Positions 32,093 to 38,324 of a stretch of 64,000 nucleotides of DNA are shown in pieces. Origin of the DNA: Armatimonadota bacterium. Lineage in GTDB: Bacteria; Sysuimicrobiota; Sysuimicrobiia; Sysuimicrobiales; Sysuimicrobiaceae. The notes below the pieces were generated by a model. The model was not told the origin of the DNA and did not search any database. It saw only the letters and a program-made list of their open reading frames with translations. The stretch's first letter is position 1; each line of letters starts with the position of its first letter. A program made the translations under genes and the position numbers. The stretch covers positions 1-64,000 of the forward strand of contig JANXBY010000033.1 of the NCBI GenBank assembly GCA_025060455.1, written 5' to 3'.

Positions 32093-32710
32093 TCAGTGCG
32101 TCCCCCGCACCTCCTGCGCGGGGCGGGTGGCCCGCTGGATCTGCTCTTCCGCGCGGTCCAGAAACTCCCGGCAGGCCGCGCGTACGGTCGGGGCGCCGTC
32201 GCAGGCCACCTTGCGCACCAACCAGCTCAGGTGGTCGTACAGGTGCCAGGCTTCGTCGTCCCGCAGCCGGGACTCCCGGGTGGCGAAGTCCAGGAACCCC
32301 TGCACACCCGCGAGTACCGCGCGGGCGTACTCCCCTGGATCGAGCACGTAGTGGCTGCCGTCCTGCGGGTCCTCCAGGTAGACGCGGCCGTGGCGGTGGA
32401 CCACGGTGAGGTCGTGGTACCCACAGCAGTCCGTCCCGCAGTCCGCCACGAACAGGGGGCACGCGTAGGGGTCGCCGGGGTCGGTGACCGCGTGGTGGTC
32501 CGCCAGGAGGGTCAGCAGCAGCCCCTGGACACCCTCAAACAGGGCGTAAGCGGAGTACGAGGCGTCGTGGGAGGGGATCCCCAGGGCCCGGGCGCTCTCC
32601 CCCAGCAGCAGGATGGGCCGGTCGTCCACCTCCAGCGAGAACAGGCAGGGGACGGCCTCCACATCCTCGCCCGTGTCGGTGATCTCCAGGCGTGCCCGGA
32701 TCCGGTTCAT
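32093..32710 (-). CDS. unknown protein with a cysteine cluster
   Basis: 205-aa soluble protein without a recognised family. The central segment CPLFVADCGTDCCGYHDLTV has four Cys and a His in 17 residues and could bind a metal or form disulfides. The N-terminal third looks like a beta-rich domain (ARLEITDTGEDVEAVPCLFS; EVDDRPILLLGE), the C-terminal third is helical. The ATG at 32710 lies nine bases after a TAAGAT box, suggesting a leaderless mRNA. The upstream neighbour on the same strand is terC; a metal-related role would be a guess. Confidence 0.6.
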   Translation of the reverse strand: MNRIRARLEITDTGEDVEAVPCLFSLEVDDRPILLLGESARALGIPSHDASYSAYALFEGVQGLLLTLLADHHAVTDPGDPYACPLFVADCGTDCCGYHDLTVVHRHGRVYLEDPQDGSHYVLDPGEYARAVLAGVQGFLDFATRESRLRDDEAWHLYDHLSWLVRKVACDGAPTVRAACREFLDRAEEQIQRATRPAQEVRGTH

Positions 32711-32748: not shown

Positions 32749-33702
32749 TCAGGAACCCGCAGAGGGCTCGGAAGCCTCCGAGGCCACCTCCTTCGGCGCG
32801 GGGATCAACACGGACGCGAGCACGCTCACCGCCAAGATGCACGCCACCACCCCGAGGGAGATGCCGATGGGGACCTTGTAGATGTCCGAGGCCAGCATCT
32901 TCAGCCCGATGAAGACCAGTACCAGCGAAAGCCCGTACTTCAGGTACCGGAACATGTCCATGATGCCTGCAAGGACGAAGAACAACGCCCGCAGCCCCAG
33001 GATGGCGAAGATGTTGGAGGTGTAGGCGGTGAACATGTGGTGGGTGATGGCGAGGACCGCGGGAATGGAGTCGATGGCGAACATCAAGTCGGTGCTCTCC
33101 ACCACCACCAGGACCAAGAACAGGGGCGTCACCCACAGCCGGCCGTCCCGGCGCACAAAGAACTTGCCCCCCACATACGTCTCCGTCACGGGGAACCGCC
33201 GGCGCACCGCCTGGAGCACCGGGTTCTGGGACGGGTCCACGGTCTCCTCGCGGTGCCGGAACAGCTTCCACCCGGTGTACACCAGCAGGGCGCCGAAGAA
33301 GTACAGGACCCAGTGGAACAGCTTCACCAGGGTCACGCCCACCAGGATCAGGCTGGCCCGCATGACCACCGCGCCCAACACCCCCCACAGGAGCACCCGG
33401 GGCTGCAGGTGTCCGGGCACCGCGAAGTAGGAGAAGATCACGAGGAAGACGAACAGGTTGTCCACGCTCAGCGCCTTCTCCACCAGGTAGGCGGTGAACC
33501 ACTCCAGGCCCACCTGGGAGCCCTCCAGGGCCCACACGCCGGCGTTGAACAACAGCGCCGCGGCGATCCACACGATGCTCCAGATGGTGGCCTCCCGCAT
33601 GGACATCTTGTGGGGAGTGCGCTGGAACACCCCCAGGTCCACCGCGAGCATGGCTCCCACCACCACGTGGAAGACAAGCCACAACCACGCTTCCACGGTC
33701 AT
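32749..33702 (-). CDS. TerC family integral membrane protein (Mn2+ efflux-like)
   Basis: 317-aa TerC/Alx-family protein with about nine membrane segments. It carries the conserved acidic metal-site motifs: EKALSVDNLFVFLVIFSYF in the first half and VVVESTDLMFAIDSIPAVLAI in the second, with Asp residues in the membrane. TerC proteins export Mn2+ or protect exported metalloproteins, and many are controlled by yybP-ykoY riboswitches. Here the gene lies 240 bases downstream of a P-type ATPase that has such a riboswitch, in the same direction, so shared control by read-through is likely. I find no second aptamer in its own leader. Confidence 0.9.
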   Translation of the reverse strand: MTVEAWLWLVFHVVVGAMLAVDLGVFQRTPHKMSMREATIWSIVWIAAALLFNAGVWALEGSQVGLEWFTAYLVEKALSVDNLFVFLVIFSYFAVPGHLQPRVLLWGVLGAVVMRASLILVGVTLVKLFHWVLYFFGALLVYTGWKLFRHREETVDPSQNPVLQAVRRRFPVTETYVGGKFFVRRDGRLWVTPLFLVLVVVESTDLMFAIDSIPAVLAITHHMFTAYTSNIFAILGLRALFFVLAGIMDMFRYLKYGLSLVLVFIGLKMLASDIYKVPIGISLGVVACILAVSVLASVLIPAPKEVASEASEPSAGS

Positions 33703-33942: not shown

Positions 33943-36636
33943 CTACCAGGAGGGCGTCCCGGCCAACCGCGTGCGCCGGAGGACCCACTTGGCCGCTTCC
34001 AGCACCGGGACGACCGTGAAGGCGGCTAGGAGGACGATCTGCCAGTCCTCCGTGGTCAACGGGAAGGTCCCGAAGGGCTTTTGGAACACCGGAACGTACA
34101 CGATGGCGGCCAGGAGCGCCACCTCCCACAACACCGCCAGGTTCAGCCACCGGTTCGCGAACGGCCGCTGCAACACTGAGTGGCGGTCGGACCGGAAGTT
34201 GTACGCCTTGAAGAACTGGATGAGGACGAGGCTGACGAAGGTCATGGTCATGGCCTCGGACAGGCTGCGGCCCGAGCTCAGAGCCCAGGAGAACACCGTG
34301 AGATTGACCAGCGCGGACCACACACCTCCCACAAGGATGAGGGCCACCACGGGCGGGGTGAAGATGGATGCCCGCGGGTTGCGCGGGGGGCGGCGCATCA
34401 GGTCGGGTTCGGGCGGGTCCACGGAGAGGGCCAGGGCTGGTAAGCCGTCCGTGGCCAGGTTCACGTACAGGATCTGGACCGCGGTCAACGGCAGCGGGAG
34501 CCCCCACAGGCCGGCGGCTGCCATGAGGAGGATCTCTCCCACGTTGGAGGACAGCAGGTACATCAGGTACTTCTTGATGTTGGAGAAGATGCCGCGCCCC
34601 TCCTCCACCGCGGCCACGATGGAGGCGAAGTTGTCGTCCAGGAGGACCATGTCCGCGGCCTCCTTGCTCACCTCCGTGCCGGTGATGCCCATGGCCACGC
34701 CGATGTCCGCCTTCTTCAGCGCGGGAGCGTCGTTCACGCCGTCACCGGTCATGGCCACCACGTGGCCCCGTTGCTGGAGGGCGGTGACCACGCGGAGCTT
34801 GTGGGCCGGAGACACCCGGGCGTAGATGTCCAGGTCCTCCACCTGATGTGCCAGCTGGTCGTCCGAGACGCGGTCCAGCTCCGTACCGGTGATCAGCCGA
34901 CCGCCCTTCAGAATGCCCAGCTCCCTCCCGATCACCTGGGCGGTCAGGGGGTGGTCGCCGGTGATCATCACCACCTTCACCCCCGCCTCCTGGCAGACGC
35001 GCACCGCGGCCTTGGCCTCGGGGCGCGGCGCGTCCATCATGCCCACGACCCCGAGGAGCACCATGTCTGACTCCAGGGTCTGTACGTCAGCGCCGGGCTT
35101 CCAGGCCACCGCGAGGACCCGGAGCGCGTCCTCCGCGAACGACCGTGCAACCTGCAGGATGTGGTGGCGGCGCTGAGGGTCCAGGGGGACCACCCCCTGG
35201 GCGGTGAGGACGGCCCGGCAGGAGTCCACCAGCACTTCGGGGGCACCCTTGGAGTACGCCACCAGGCCTTCCGGGGAGCGGTGGAGGGTGGTCATCCGCT
35301 TCCGCTCCGAGGTGAACGGGACCTCGTGGACCCGGGGAAAGGACGCTTCCAGTTCGCGCTTGTCCAGGCCTGCCTTGGCGGCAGCGACCACGAGAGCCGC
35401 CTCCGTGGGATCGCCCTGGACGGTCCACCGGCCGTCCGTGGCCGTCACCTCCGCATCCGAGGCCAGGCTGGCCGCGCGGAGGAGCAGCCGGAGGGCCTCG
35501 GAAGGCTGTGCGGGGCGTCCGTCGAGGAAGAACTGGCCGCTCGGCTCGTAGCCCTCCCCGGAGACCTCCCACAGCTCGTCTGCCACGTACACCTTGCGAA
35601 CGGTCATCTCGTTCTTGGTGAGAGTGCCGGTTTTGTCCGAGCAGATCACGGAAACGCTTCCCAGGGTCTCCACCGCGGGCAGACGGCGCACGAGGGCGTT
35701 GCGGCGGACCATGCGTTGCACCCCGATCGCCAGGGAGATGGTCACCACCGCGGGCAAGGCCTCCGGGACGACCGCCACCGCCAGGGCGATGCCGAACACG
35801 AACATCTGCAGGAGCGGCTGTCCGCGCAACAGGCCCAGGGCCACTACCAGGGCCACCACCACGAAGGCGGCACGGGCGAGGGTGTGGCCGACCCGGTCCA
35901 GGTTCTCCTGGAGGGGTGTCCGCCCCGCCTGTACGGTCTCCAACATTCGGGCGATCTTGCCGAACTCTGTGGCCATGCCCGTGGCCACCACCACCCCACG
36001 GCCCCGCCCGAAGGTCACCGTGGTCCCGGCGTACGCCATGTTCGCCCGGTCACCCAGGGGCACGTCGGCGTCCGCCAGAGGCGCGGGGGACTTGGCCACG
36101 GGAACCGACTCCCCGGTGAGGGGCGCTTCGTCCACCTGGAGGTTTGCCGCCTCCAGCAGGCGGAGGTCCGCAGGGACGCGGTCGCCTATGCGCAGTACCA
36201 CCACGTCGCCGGGTACCAGGTCGCGGGCGGGCACGCGGACCTCCCGGCCGTCCCGCAGGACGTGAGCGACGGGCGCGGCCATCCTGCGGAGGGCTTCCAG
36301 GGCCTTTTCGGCCCGGTACTCCTGCACGAATCCCAGGAGGACCGCGAAGAGTACAATGATCGTGATGGCCACCGACTCCACCACGTGCCCCAGGGCTGCC
36401 GACAGCGCGGTGGCGGCCAGCAGGATGAGGATCAGGACGTTTTTGAACTGCCCCAGAAGGACCGGCCACGGGGACACCCGATGAGCGGACTGCAGCTCGT
36501 TGGGCCCGTACTCGTGGAGGCGACGGGCGGCCTCATGAGAGCTGAGGCCCCGGAGGGTGGAACGGAGCTCCGTCAGGACCGCTTCAGCCGTCATGGTGTG
36601 CCAAGCCCGGTGGCCGGGGCCTGTGGTCGAAGACAT
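33943..36636 (-). CDS. P2-type cation-transporting ATPase, probable Mn2+ exporter
   Basis: 897-aa P-type ATPase with the SERCA-like (P2A) layout. It has the N-terminal cation-ATPase domain, actuator loop LTGESVPVAK, M4 AVVPEALPAVVT, phosphorylated Asp334 in DKTGTLT, nucleotide-domain KGAPEVL, hinge MTGDGVNDAPALKKAD, M5 SSNVGEILLM and M6 NLATDGLPALALSVD, all cation-site segments of Ca2+/Mn2+ pumps. The ATG at 36636 follows AGGAGG by eight bases; long upstream frames run through the riboswitch and glmU and are not coding. The riboswitch in its leader makes Mn2+ the best substrate; Ca2+ remains possible. Confidence 0.9.
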   Translation of the reverse strand: MSSTTGPGHRAWHTMTAEAVLTELRSTLRGLSSHEAARRLHEYGPNELQSAHRVSPWPVLLGQFKNVLILILLAATALSAALGHVVESVAITIIVLFAVLLGFVQEYRAEKALEALRRMAAPVAHVLRDGREVRVPARDLVPGDVVVLRIGDRVPADLRLLEAANLQVDEAPLTGESVPVAKSPAPLADADVPLGDRANMAYAGTTVTFGRGRGVVVATGMATEFGKIARMLETVQAGRTPLQENLDRVGHTLARAAFVVVALVVALGLLRGQPLLQMFVFGIALAVAVVPEALPAVVTISLAIGVQRMVRRNALVRRLPAVETLGSVSVICSDKTGTLTKNEMTVRKVYVADELWEVSGEGYEPSGQFFLDGRPAQPSEALRLLLRAASLASDAEVTATDGRWTVQGDPTEAALVVAAAKAGLDKRELEASFPRVHEVPFTSERKRMTTLHRSPEGLVAYSKGAPEVLVDSCRAVLTAQGVVPLDPQRRHHILQVARSFAEDALRVLAVAWKPGADVQTLESDMVLLGVVGMMDAPRPEAKAAVRVCQEAGVKVVMITGDHPLTAQVIGRELGILKGGRLITGTELDRVSDDQLAHQVEDLDIYARVSPAHKLRVVTALQQRGHVVAMTGDGVNDAPALKKADIGVAMGITGTEVSKEAADMVLLDDNFASIVAAVEEGRGIFSNIKKYLMYLLSSNVGEILLMAAAGLWGLPLPLTAVQILYVNLATDGLPALALSVDPPEPDLMRRPPRNPRASIFTPPVVALILVGGVWSALVNLTVFSWALSSGRSLSEAMTMTFVSLVLIQFFKAYNFRSDRHSVLQRPFANRWLNLAVLWEVALLAAIVYVPVFQKPFGTFPLTTEDWQIVLLAAFTVVPVLEAAKWVLRRTRLAGTPSW

Positions 36637-36715
36637 CCGGTTGCCTCCTGCGCTCGTGAGTCCCTCGTCGCCTCTCCAAGTTCCCGGGCGGCGGCTTCGC
36701 CAGCCCGCGGCCAGA

Positions 36716-36753
36716 CAACAAAAGAGACCTCCAACCGGACGGTTGGAGGTCTC
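36716..36753 (-). terminator. intrinsic terminator of the riboswitch expression platform
   Basis: A perfect 13-bp hairpin (GAGACCTCCAACC, 36724-36736, pairing with 36741-36753; loop of four) is followed on the minus strand by TTTTGTTG. It lies between the aptamer and the ATPase start, not after a gene. The CCTC inside its first arm can instead pair with GAGG beside the aptamer core, so aptamer folding and termination would be mutually exclusive. Confidence 0.85.
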
Positions 36754-36754
36754 A

Positions 36755-36875
36755 CCGCCAGCTGTGACTGTCGGCCCGGCCGGGCAGCTACCGTGTGGGC
36801 CGCTGCCGGACTGACGACCGAGCCGCGGCCGCGTGCACGACGACCGCCGGCTACTCCCCTCGGCCCCGCGGCGTG
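36755..36875 (-). ncRNA. yybP-ykoY manganese riboswitch aptamer
   Basis: On the minus strand the segment starts with GAGGGGAGTAGCC (the GGGGAGTAGC core is 36859-36850), followed by GGTCGTCA, CCGGC, GCCGACA and finally GTGAGACCTCC. These blocks, their order and spacing match the conserved yybP-ykoY pattern (GGGGAGUAGC, GUCGUCA, CCGGC, UUGACA, AGACCU). This class binds Mn2+ and turns on exporters such as P-type ATPases and TerC/MntP. A promoter lies just upstream and a terminator just downstream, as expected for a transcriptional ON switch. It controls the P-type ATPase and probably terC. Boundaries are approximate. Confidence 0.85.
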
Positions 36876-36888
36876 CGAGGCCACCAAC

Positions 36889-36917
36889 ACCATACGGACG
36901 TGCCGGGCACGGGTCAA
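36889..36917 (-). promoter_or_regulatory. promoter of the riboswitch-ATPase transcript
   Basis: On the minus strand TTGACC (36917-36912) and TATGGT (36894-36889) are exactly 17 bases apart. Transcription should start near 36882, a few bases before the aptamer. This is the best -35/-10 pair in the window. Confidence 0.65.
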
Positions 36918-36944: not shown

Positions 36945-38324
36945 GTGACGGATTCCCGGACGGTGGCGGCGGTGGTGCTGGCCGCGGGCGAGGGCAAGCG
37001 GATGCGGTCCGCCCTGCCGAAGGTGTTGCACCCTGTGGGCGGCCGGCCCATGGTGCTGAGGGTCCTGGACAGCCTGCGGCCGCTGGTGGGAGGACCGTTG
37101 GTGGTGGTGGTCGGGCGCGGGGGGGAGCGAGTGGAGGCGGTGTTGCCGGAGGGCGTCTGTGTGGCCTGGCAGCCCTTCCCACGGGGTACCGGCGACGCGG
37201 TACGCTGCGCCCTGCCCCACCTCGAAGGGCACCGAGGGCCCGTGGTCGTCGCCTACGGGGACACACCACTGGTCCAGGAGGCCACCTTCCGCCAGCTCGT
37301 GGCCGCCCACCTGCAGGGCGGGTACGCGGCCACGCTGGTCAGCGCGGTGGTGGAAGCGCCTGCGGGCCTGGGGCGGGTGGTTCGCGGCCCGGACGGTTCC
37401 TTCCAGCAGGTGGTGGAGGAAGCGGACTGCACGCCCGAGCAGCGGGCTATCCGCGAGGTGAACACCGGGCTGTGTTGCTTTGAGGTGGAGGACCTGCGGG
37501 AGGCCCTGACGCAGCTGGTCCCGCAGAACGCGCAGGGCGAGTACTACCTCACGGACACCTTCGGGTGGCTGCGGGCCCGCGGCCGGCGGGTGGGGGTGGT
37601 GCAGGTCAGGGAGGTGAGGCAAGTCATGGGCGTGAACTCGCGCAAGGAGCTGGCGCAGGCGGAGGAGACGTTGCGCCGGCGGACCCTGGAGGCGTTGATG
37701 GAGTCGGGGGTGACGGTGGTGGACCCCGACGCCACGTATGTGGCGCCCGACGTCCGGGTGGGCCCGGACACCGTCCTCCTCCCGTTCACGGTGCTGGAGG
37801 AGGGAACCGTGGTGGGGTCCGGGTGTCAGCTGGGGCCCGGTGCCCACGTGAGGGCCTCCCGCATCGGCGACCGCGTGCGGGTCCTGTGGTCCGTGGTGGA
37901 GGAGAGCGAGGTGGCGGAGGACTGCCGTATCGGGCCCTACGCGCACCTACGGCCCGGCACCCGGCTGGCCGCCCGCGTGGTGGTGGGCAACTTCGCGGAG
38001 ATCAAGAACTCCACCGTGGGCGAGGGCACGAAGGTGCAGCACGTTTCGTACCTGGGCGACGCCACGGTGGGGCGCCAGGTGAACATCGGGGCGGGAACCA
38101 TCACGTGCAACTTCAAGTACGGAGTCCCCGGCAAGCACCCCACGGTGATCGAGGACGGTGCGTTCATCGGCAGCGACACGCTGCTGAACGCGCCGGTGCG
38201 GGTGGGCGCGGGCGCCGTGACGGGGGCGGGCGCGGTGGTGACCAAAGACGTCCCGCCCGGCATGGTGGCGGTGGGCGTACCGGCCCGGGTGGTGCGCCGC
38301 GCCCGGCCGCAGGACGAGCGGTGA
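36945..38324 (+). CDS. glmU: bifunctional N-acetylglucosamine-1-phosphate uridyltransferase/acetyltransferase
   Basis: 459-aa enzyme making UDP-GlcNAc. The N-terminal nucleotidyltransferase has VVLAAGEGKRMRSALPKVLH and GTGDAVRCA, and YGDTPLV. The C-terminal left-handed beta-helix has hexapeptide repeats and the acetyltransferase residues in KNSTVGEGTKVQHVSYLGDA and NIGAGTITCNFKYG. Product feeds peptidoglycan, lipid A (lpxA, same strand downstream) and WecA/WecB. The GTG at 36945 gives the normal N-terminus; the upstream extension covers the riboswitch. Its stop overlaps the prs start (GTGA). Confidence 0.95.
   Translation: MTDSRTVAAVVLAAGEGKRMRSALPKVLHPVGGRPMVLRVLDSLRPLVGGPLVVVVGRGGERVEAVLPEGVCVAWQPFPRGTGDAVRCALPHLEGHRGPVVVAYGDTPLVQEATFRQLVAAHLQGGYAATLVSAVVEAPAGLGRVVRGPDGSFQQVVEEADCTPEQRAIREVNTGLCCFEVEDLREALTQLVPQNAQGEYYLTDTFGWLRARGRRVGVVQVREVRQVMGVNSRKELAQAEETLRRRTLEALMESGVTVVDPDATYVAPDVRVGPDTVLLPFTVLEEGTVVGSGCQLGPGAHVRASRIGDRVRVLWSVVEESEVAEDCRIGPYAHLRPGTRLAARVVVGNFAEIKNSTVGEGTKVQHVSYLGDATVGRQVNIGAGTITCNFKYGVPGKHPTVIEDGAFIGSDTLLNAPVRVGAGAVTGAGAVVTKDVPPGMVAVGVPARVVRRARPQDER

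Follow-up and report, generated by a model that had tools for sequence, protein, structure and literature searches.

A GC-rich leader of the yybP-ykoY manganese riboswitch class, predicted upstream of PMR1-type ATPase and TerC genes in Sysuimicrobiota

The leader described here, on the minus strand of a 64,000-nucleotide stretch of contig JANXBY010000033.1 (the window), is with a probability of about 0.9 a yybP-ykoY-class riboswitch that acts on transcription and is switched on by Mn2+. The riboswitch is ordinary in kind and the class is already known; its interest is that it brings this well-studied class into a GC-rich phylum whose members are mostly uncultured and where the class is left unannotated. 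Our literature search returned no paper linking riboswitches to CSP1-3/Sysuimicrobiota. The original prediction, made from the letters alone, had described a promoter (TTGACC-17-TATGGT), a series of conserved blocks, a 13-bp hairpin, an AGGAGG and an ATPase gene, and we find all of these in that order and where it had placed them. The features are:

36945..38324, plus strand: glmU, the divergent neighbour marking the orthologous locus; it adjoins the riboswitch in the six sister leaders (L003-L007 and L009)
36917-36912, minus strand: -35 element TTGACC, conserved in place in the same six sisters
36894-36889, minus strand: -10 element TATGGT, 17 nt from the -35; TATGGT or TAAGGT in the sisters
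36882-36862, minus strand: 5' hairpin P0, formed by 36882-36875 with 36869-36862, located where the RNA is predicted to begin and flush with P1.1
36861-36745, minus strand: yybP-ykoY-type Mn2+ riboswitch aptamer, 117 nt, predicted from a sister-based covariance model (R1), covariation and a minimum free energy (MFE) structure equal to the canonical fold
36861-36858, minus strand: 5' strand of the switch helix P1.1, GAGG, pairing with 36749-36746
36859-36850, minus strand: block GGGGAGTAGC, in the expected order
36857-36852, minus strand: L1, GGAGUA, identical across the leaders of alignment A1
36851-36849, minus strand: 5' strand of P1.2, GCC, pairing with GGU at 36756-36754
36847-36825, minus strand: P2 hairpin, predicted by folding; 8 of 9 pairs covary in alignment A3
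36824-36773, minus strand: P3 (36824-36818 with 36779-36773), the L3 loop and the distal P3 hairpin, from folding and covariation
36819-36812, minus strand: block GGTCGTCA, the functional L3 copy, with CCGGC, GCCGACA and AGACCT downstream
36817-36808, minus strand: 5' strand of L3, UCGUCAGUCC, with the invariant adenosine at 36812
36770-36759, minus strand: P4 hairpin, predicted by folding; lost in L008 and L086
36753-36724, minus strand: intrinsic terminator stem-loop, 13 perfect pairs with loop GUCC, from folding and a terminator scan
36749-36746, minus strand: 3' strand of P1.1, CCUC, common to the terminator 5' arm
36723-36716, minus strand: terminator U-tract UUUUGUUG (TTTTGTTG in DNA)
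36649-36644, minus strand: ribosome binding site AGGAGG, ahead of the ATG at 36636
33943..36636, minus strand: PMR1/SPCA-type P-type ATPase, 897 aa, with all Pfam P-type ATPase domains
32749..33702, minus strand: TerC/Alx-family gene, 317 aa, scoring 406 bits with TIGR03718 ('R_switched_Alx', cut-off 246)

Within 4.4 kb, neither strand has a sigma-70-like match other than the promoter (0.1 expected), the terminator ranks best of the region, and the folding energy of the complete element is 3.4 sd lower than that of dinucleotide shuffles. Several hallmarks of the class are present in the aptamer. The L1 motif GGGGAGUAG is accompanied by a 3' AGACC that closes P1.1, and L3 combines CGUCA and the invariant adenosine with a 3' CCGG strand (a second copy of GGTCGTC, at 36845-36839, falls inside P2). 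P1, P2, P3 and P4 form a four-way junction, both in the MFE structure of the aptamer transcript and by covariation, and the switch helix P1.1 overlaps the expression platform, with CCUC 36749-36746 belonging to both. In our mapping, positions 36857, 36856 and 36855 of L1 are the equivalents of G8, G9 and A10 of Lactococcus lactis, and A36812 in L3 that of A41, the invariant Mn-binding adenosine; the metal-core residues of L1 and the L3 adenosine have roles in metal binding (PMC6754395, PMC9190785).

The element thus shares with the RF00080 class and with the known structures of the L. lactis yoaB and X. oryzae aptamers the P1.1/L1/P1.2 arrangement, the four-way junction with P2 and P4, P3 with L3, the invariant adenosine and the opposition of P1.1 to an intrinsic terminator (PMC6754395, PMC11087558, PMC9190785). 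It differs from the RF00080 class in its GC-rich helices, a 4-bp P1.1, an additional 5' hairpin directly abutting that helix and a score far under the cut-off. The extra hairpin, P0, is kept in all seven family members (L003-L007, L009 and the query), flush or nearly flush with P1.1, and is absent from L008 and the more distant leaders. P0 could plausibly serve to stack coaxially on the 4-bp P1.1.

Both downstream genes belong to families of Mn2+ homeostasis, a further feature of the class, and at the level of family they agree with the Mn2+-exporter-type target that had been proposed. The PMR1 type is the closest for the ATPase (786 bits with TIGR01522, against a curated cut-off of 798), and among proteins of solved structure the ATPase is best matched by human SPCA1 (ATP2C1), a Ca2+/Mn2+ pump. 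Counting against the Mn2+ reading is a Leu in place of the Gln of human SPCA1 in the M6 motif DGPPAQ, a residue that matters for Mn2+ transport in yeast Pmr1. The ATPase may export Mn2+. No promoter-like site was found in the 240 bp between the ATPase gene and terC, and terC is probably on the same transcript.

In 7/7 family genomes a divergent glmU is the neighbour of the leader, and in five of the six genomes other than the query the leader stands directly before terC. The query has the order leader, ATPase, terC. In G004 the leader is followed by an orthologue of the ATPase (79% identity), and a TerC relative was not found in that genome. Across the phylum and besides the query, the leader occurs before TerC in 13 genomes, more distant examples being those of G020, G035, G038, G017, G016, G036, G014 and G007, and before the orthologous ATPase in one. 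This exchange of TerC and ATPase under one conserved switch provides independent support for Mn2+ handling by the ATPase. In Vibrio, too, TerC genes are known under this class of riboswitch (PMC13274385). A riboswitch was not found before the 70%-identical ATPase orthologue of G023 (L083, G023 C6). A similar 205-aa open reading frame lies 3' of terC in the window (32093-32710, minus strand) and 3' of the ATPase in G004 (L082:3432-4049, plus strand).

The nature of the target bears on whether the ligand has drifted, for example to Ca2+ or another divalent ion, within a retained yybP-ykoY fold. A PMR1-type ATPase belongs to a family of Ca2+/Mn2+ pumps, and PMC11434433 describes the yybP-ykoY riboswitch that precedes mgtA, a gene for a P-type Mn/Ca ATPase in Streptococcus, as Mn/Ca-sensing. 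The query resembles that arrangement (PMC11434433 and its reference 28); it differs from it in coming from another phylum and in having terC, probably on the same transcript, behind its ATPase gene. However, the L1/L3 core of the query is that of the TerC-controlling sister leaders, with the Mn-selective adenosine included, and the same RNA drives TerC in all family sisters but one. We therefore consider a drifted ligand unlikely and retain Mn2+ as the predicted one.

The assignment to the class, also made in the original prediction, is borne out by covariation, synteny and R1, a covariance model built with the query left out from the six sister leaders aligned under the four-way-junction structure. 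The R1 score was 75.1 bits (E 9.7e-17) for the query and 74.4 bits for leader L008, likely noise lying at about 16 bits or less in 360 kb searched. R1 also recovered three leaders of proteobacterial terC genes (26-33 bits) and, from E. coli, the alx leader (28.8 bits, E 1.3e-4), which demonstrates homology with the known class from the opposite side. The alx leader shares with the query its L1 (AAGGGGAGUAACU), its L3 (UCGUCA), its 3'-side GUGAGACC and control of a TerC-family gene, but has no long P2, has a very long P4 and is AT-richer. A second weak match in G020 (L085, 22.5 bits) was set aside, as a check of open reading frames and tblastn gave it no link to a Mn2+ gene.

The sisters themselves score 96-132 bits with R1, being its own training set, and the lower score of the query could be taken, together with a G at 36851 where the other family members have A, as a sign that the riboswitch has decayed, has lost its ability to switch and now leaves the genes effectively constitutively off or on. 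We find such decay very improbable: G36851 keeps its pair as G-U, neither the other helices nor the core loops are disrupted, and the promoter, the terminator and the ribosome binding site are all preserved. A working riboswitch remains the preferred reading.

The covariance check with Rfam RF00080 gave the opposite outcome. The model (Rfam 15, gathering cut-off 45 bits), applied with the gathering and with relaxed thresholds, scored the query at only 7.5 bits, at 36699-36860, a result that taken literally refutes the class assignment. However, RF00080 gives the mntP leader of E. coli K-12 41.6 bits, also under the cut-off, and the alx leader of the same strain is absent from the RF00080 listing even at E 0.01; because the model rejects these two leaders as well, its score cannot decide membership. 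Among six control contigs carrying a TerC relative, three of which (L034, L037 and L051) show visible canonical motifs, RF00080 listed L034 alone, at 20 bits. Other weak Rfam matches in the region (miRNA, isrG and Bcj14) had E values of 1.2-9.5 and are attributed to chance. None of the 43 genomes of the phylum gave an RF00080 match above cut-off, while at least 15 of the 43 carry the element, so that the suspicion that high-GC versions escape annotation holds for the present phylum. RF00080 is too insensitive to serve as a negative test, and Mn2+ regulation will be undercounted in surveys that rely on this model.

The helices were evaluated by covariation. Among the six training leaders, 10 pairs had changed on both sides, compared to 0-2 when the partner was slid. 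Across 15 leaders of the phylum, in an alignment that was fitted to the model and is therefore a less clean test than the six-leader one, both-side changes were found in 28 of 36 pairs (6-11 in slid controls) and 94.4% of cells were paired (30-48% slid). The first pair of P1.1 is compensatory, G-C in 10 of the 15 and A-U in the other 5, and the P1.2 pairs vary as AU/GC/GU, CG/UA and CG/UG. A plain attenuator or constitutive terminator leader lacking a metal aptamer, its motifs having arisen by chance in GC-rich DNA, is the least probable explanation that we considered, the RF00080 score in its favour being outweighed by helix-by-helix covariation far over the slid controls, invariant core loops and the detection of E. 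coli alx by R1; covariation in both leader sets and the R1 matches refute a chance origin of the motifs.

For the riboswitch that we favour, a switch had been proposed in which CCTC of the terminator arm pairs with GAGG, and folding and covariation agree with it, P1.1 being an antiterminator that competes with the terminator 5' arm. At -78.4 kcal/mol, the unconstrained MFE structure of the RNA from 36882 to C36745 consists of exactly P0, the helices P1.1 and P1.2, and the four-way junction. Once the terminator 3' arm is added, the terminator fold reaches -97.7 kcal/mol compared to -84.3 kcal/mol with P1.1 kept, and P1.1 alone dissolves. P1.1 and the terminator are thus mutually exclusive. This is the arrangement known from the yybP-ykoY class, in which Mn2+ strengthens a weak P1.1 so that it resists displacement by the invading terminator strand (PMC6754395, PMC11087558).

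RNA polymerase would start near 36882 and transcribe the P0 hairpin, followed by the four-way-junction aptamer. Mn2+, with Mg2+, would dock L1 on L3 and stabilise the 4-bp P1.1 (GAGG 36861-36858 with CCUC 36749-36746), which would withhold the terminator 5' arm and let transcription proceed into the ATPase and TerC genes, whose products would expel or handle excess Mn2+. Without Mn2+, CCUC would join the 13-bp terminator and transcription would stop at the U-tract (36723-36716). A point against this reading is that P1.1 has only 4 bp and the terminator is far stabler, so that reaching the ON state depends on metal docking and on kinetics, which folding energies do not reveal. Both Mn2+ binding and Mn2+-dependent read-through are what we would expect of this predicted switch.

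At somewhat under even odds, we tentatively suggest that the leaders form a GC-rich, lineage-wide branch of Mn2+ riboswitches unseen by the standard model, in which a built-in 5' hairpin stacks on and stabilises an unusually short switch helix, and in which a fixed slot beside glmU has had different Mn2+ exporters (TerC, a PMR1-type ATPase or both) swapped in.

Two leaders (L008:1502-1592 and L086:356-447) have lost P4, leaving a three-way junction, and have P1.2 re-paired as AUC/GAU. Another R1-type leader, L087:321-418 (G008 C14:22220-22317), scores 53 bits with helices and terminator intact and has an altered core, with GAGGGUAAUAG replacing GAGGGGAGUAA and CUCCUCA replacing GUCGUCA. A pattern search of 146 genomes found no second copy of this core, and a TerC relative was not found in the G008 genome. 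The leader lies upstream of a gene for a membrane zinc metallopeptidase (PF04298, YugP-like) and may be either a variant that responds to a different ligand or a copy in decay.
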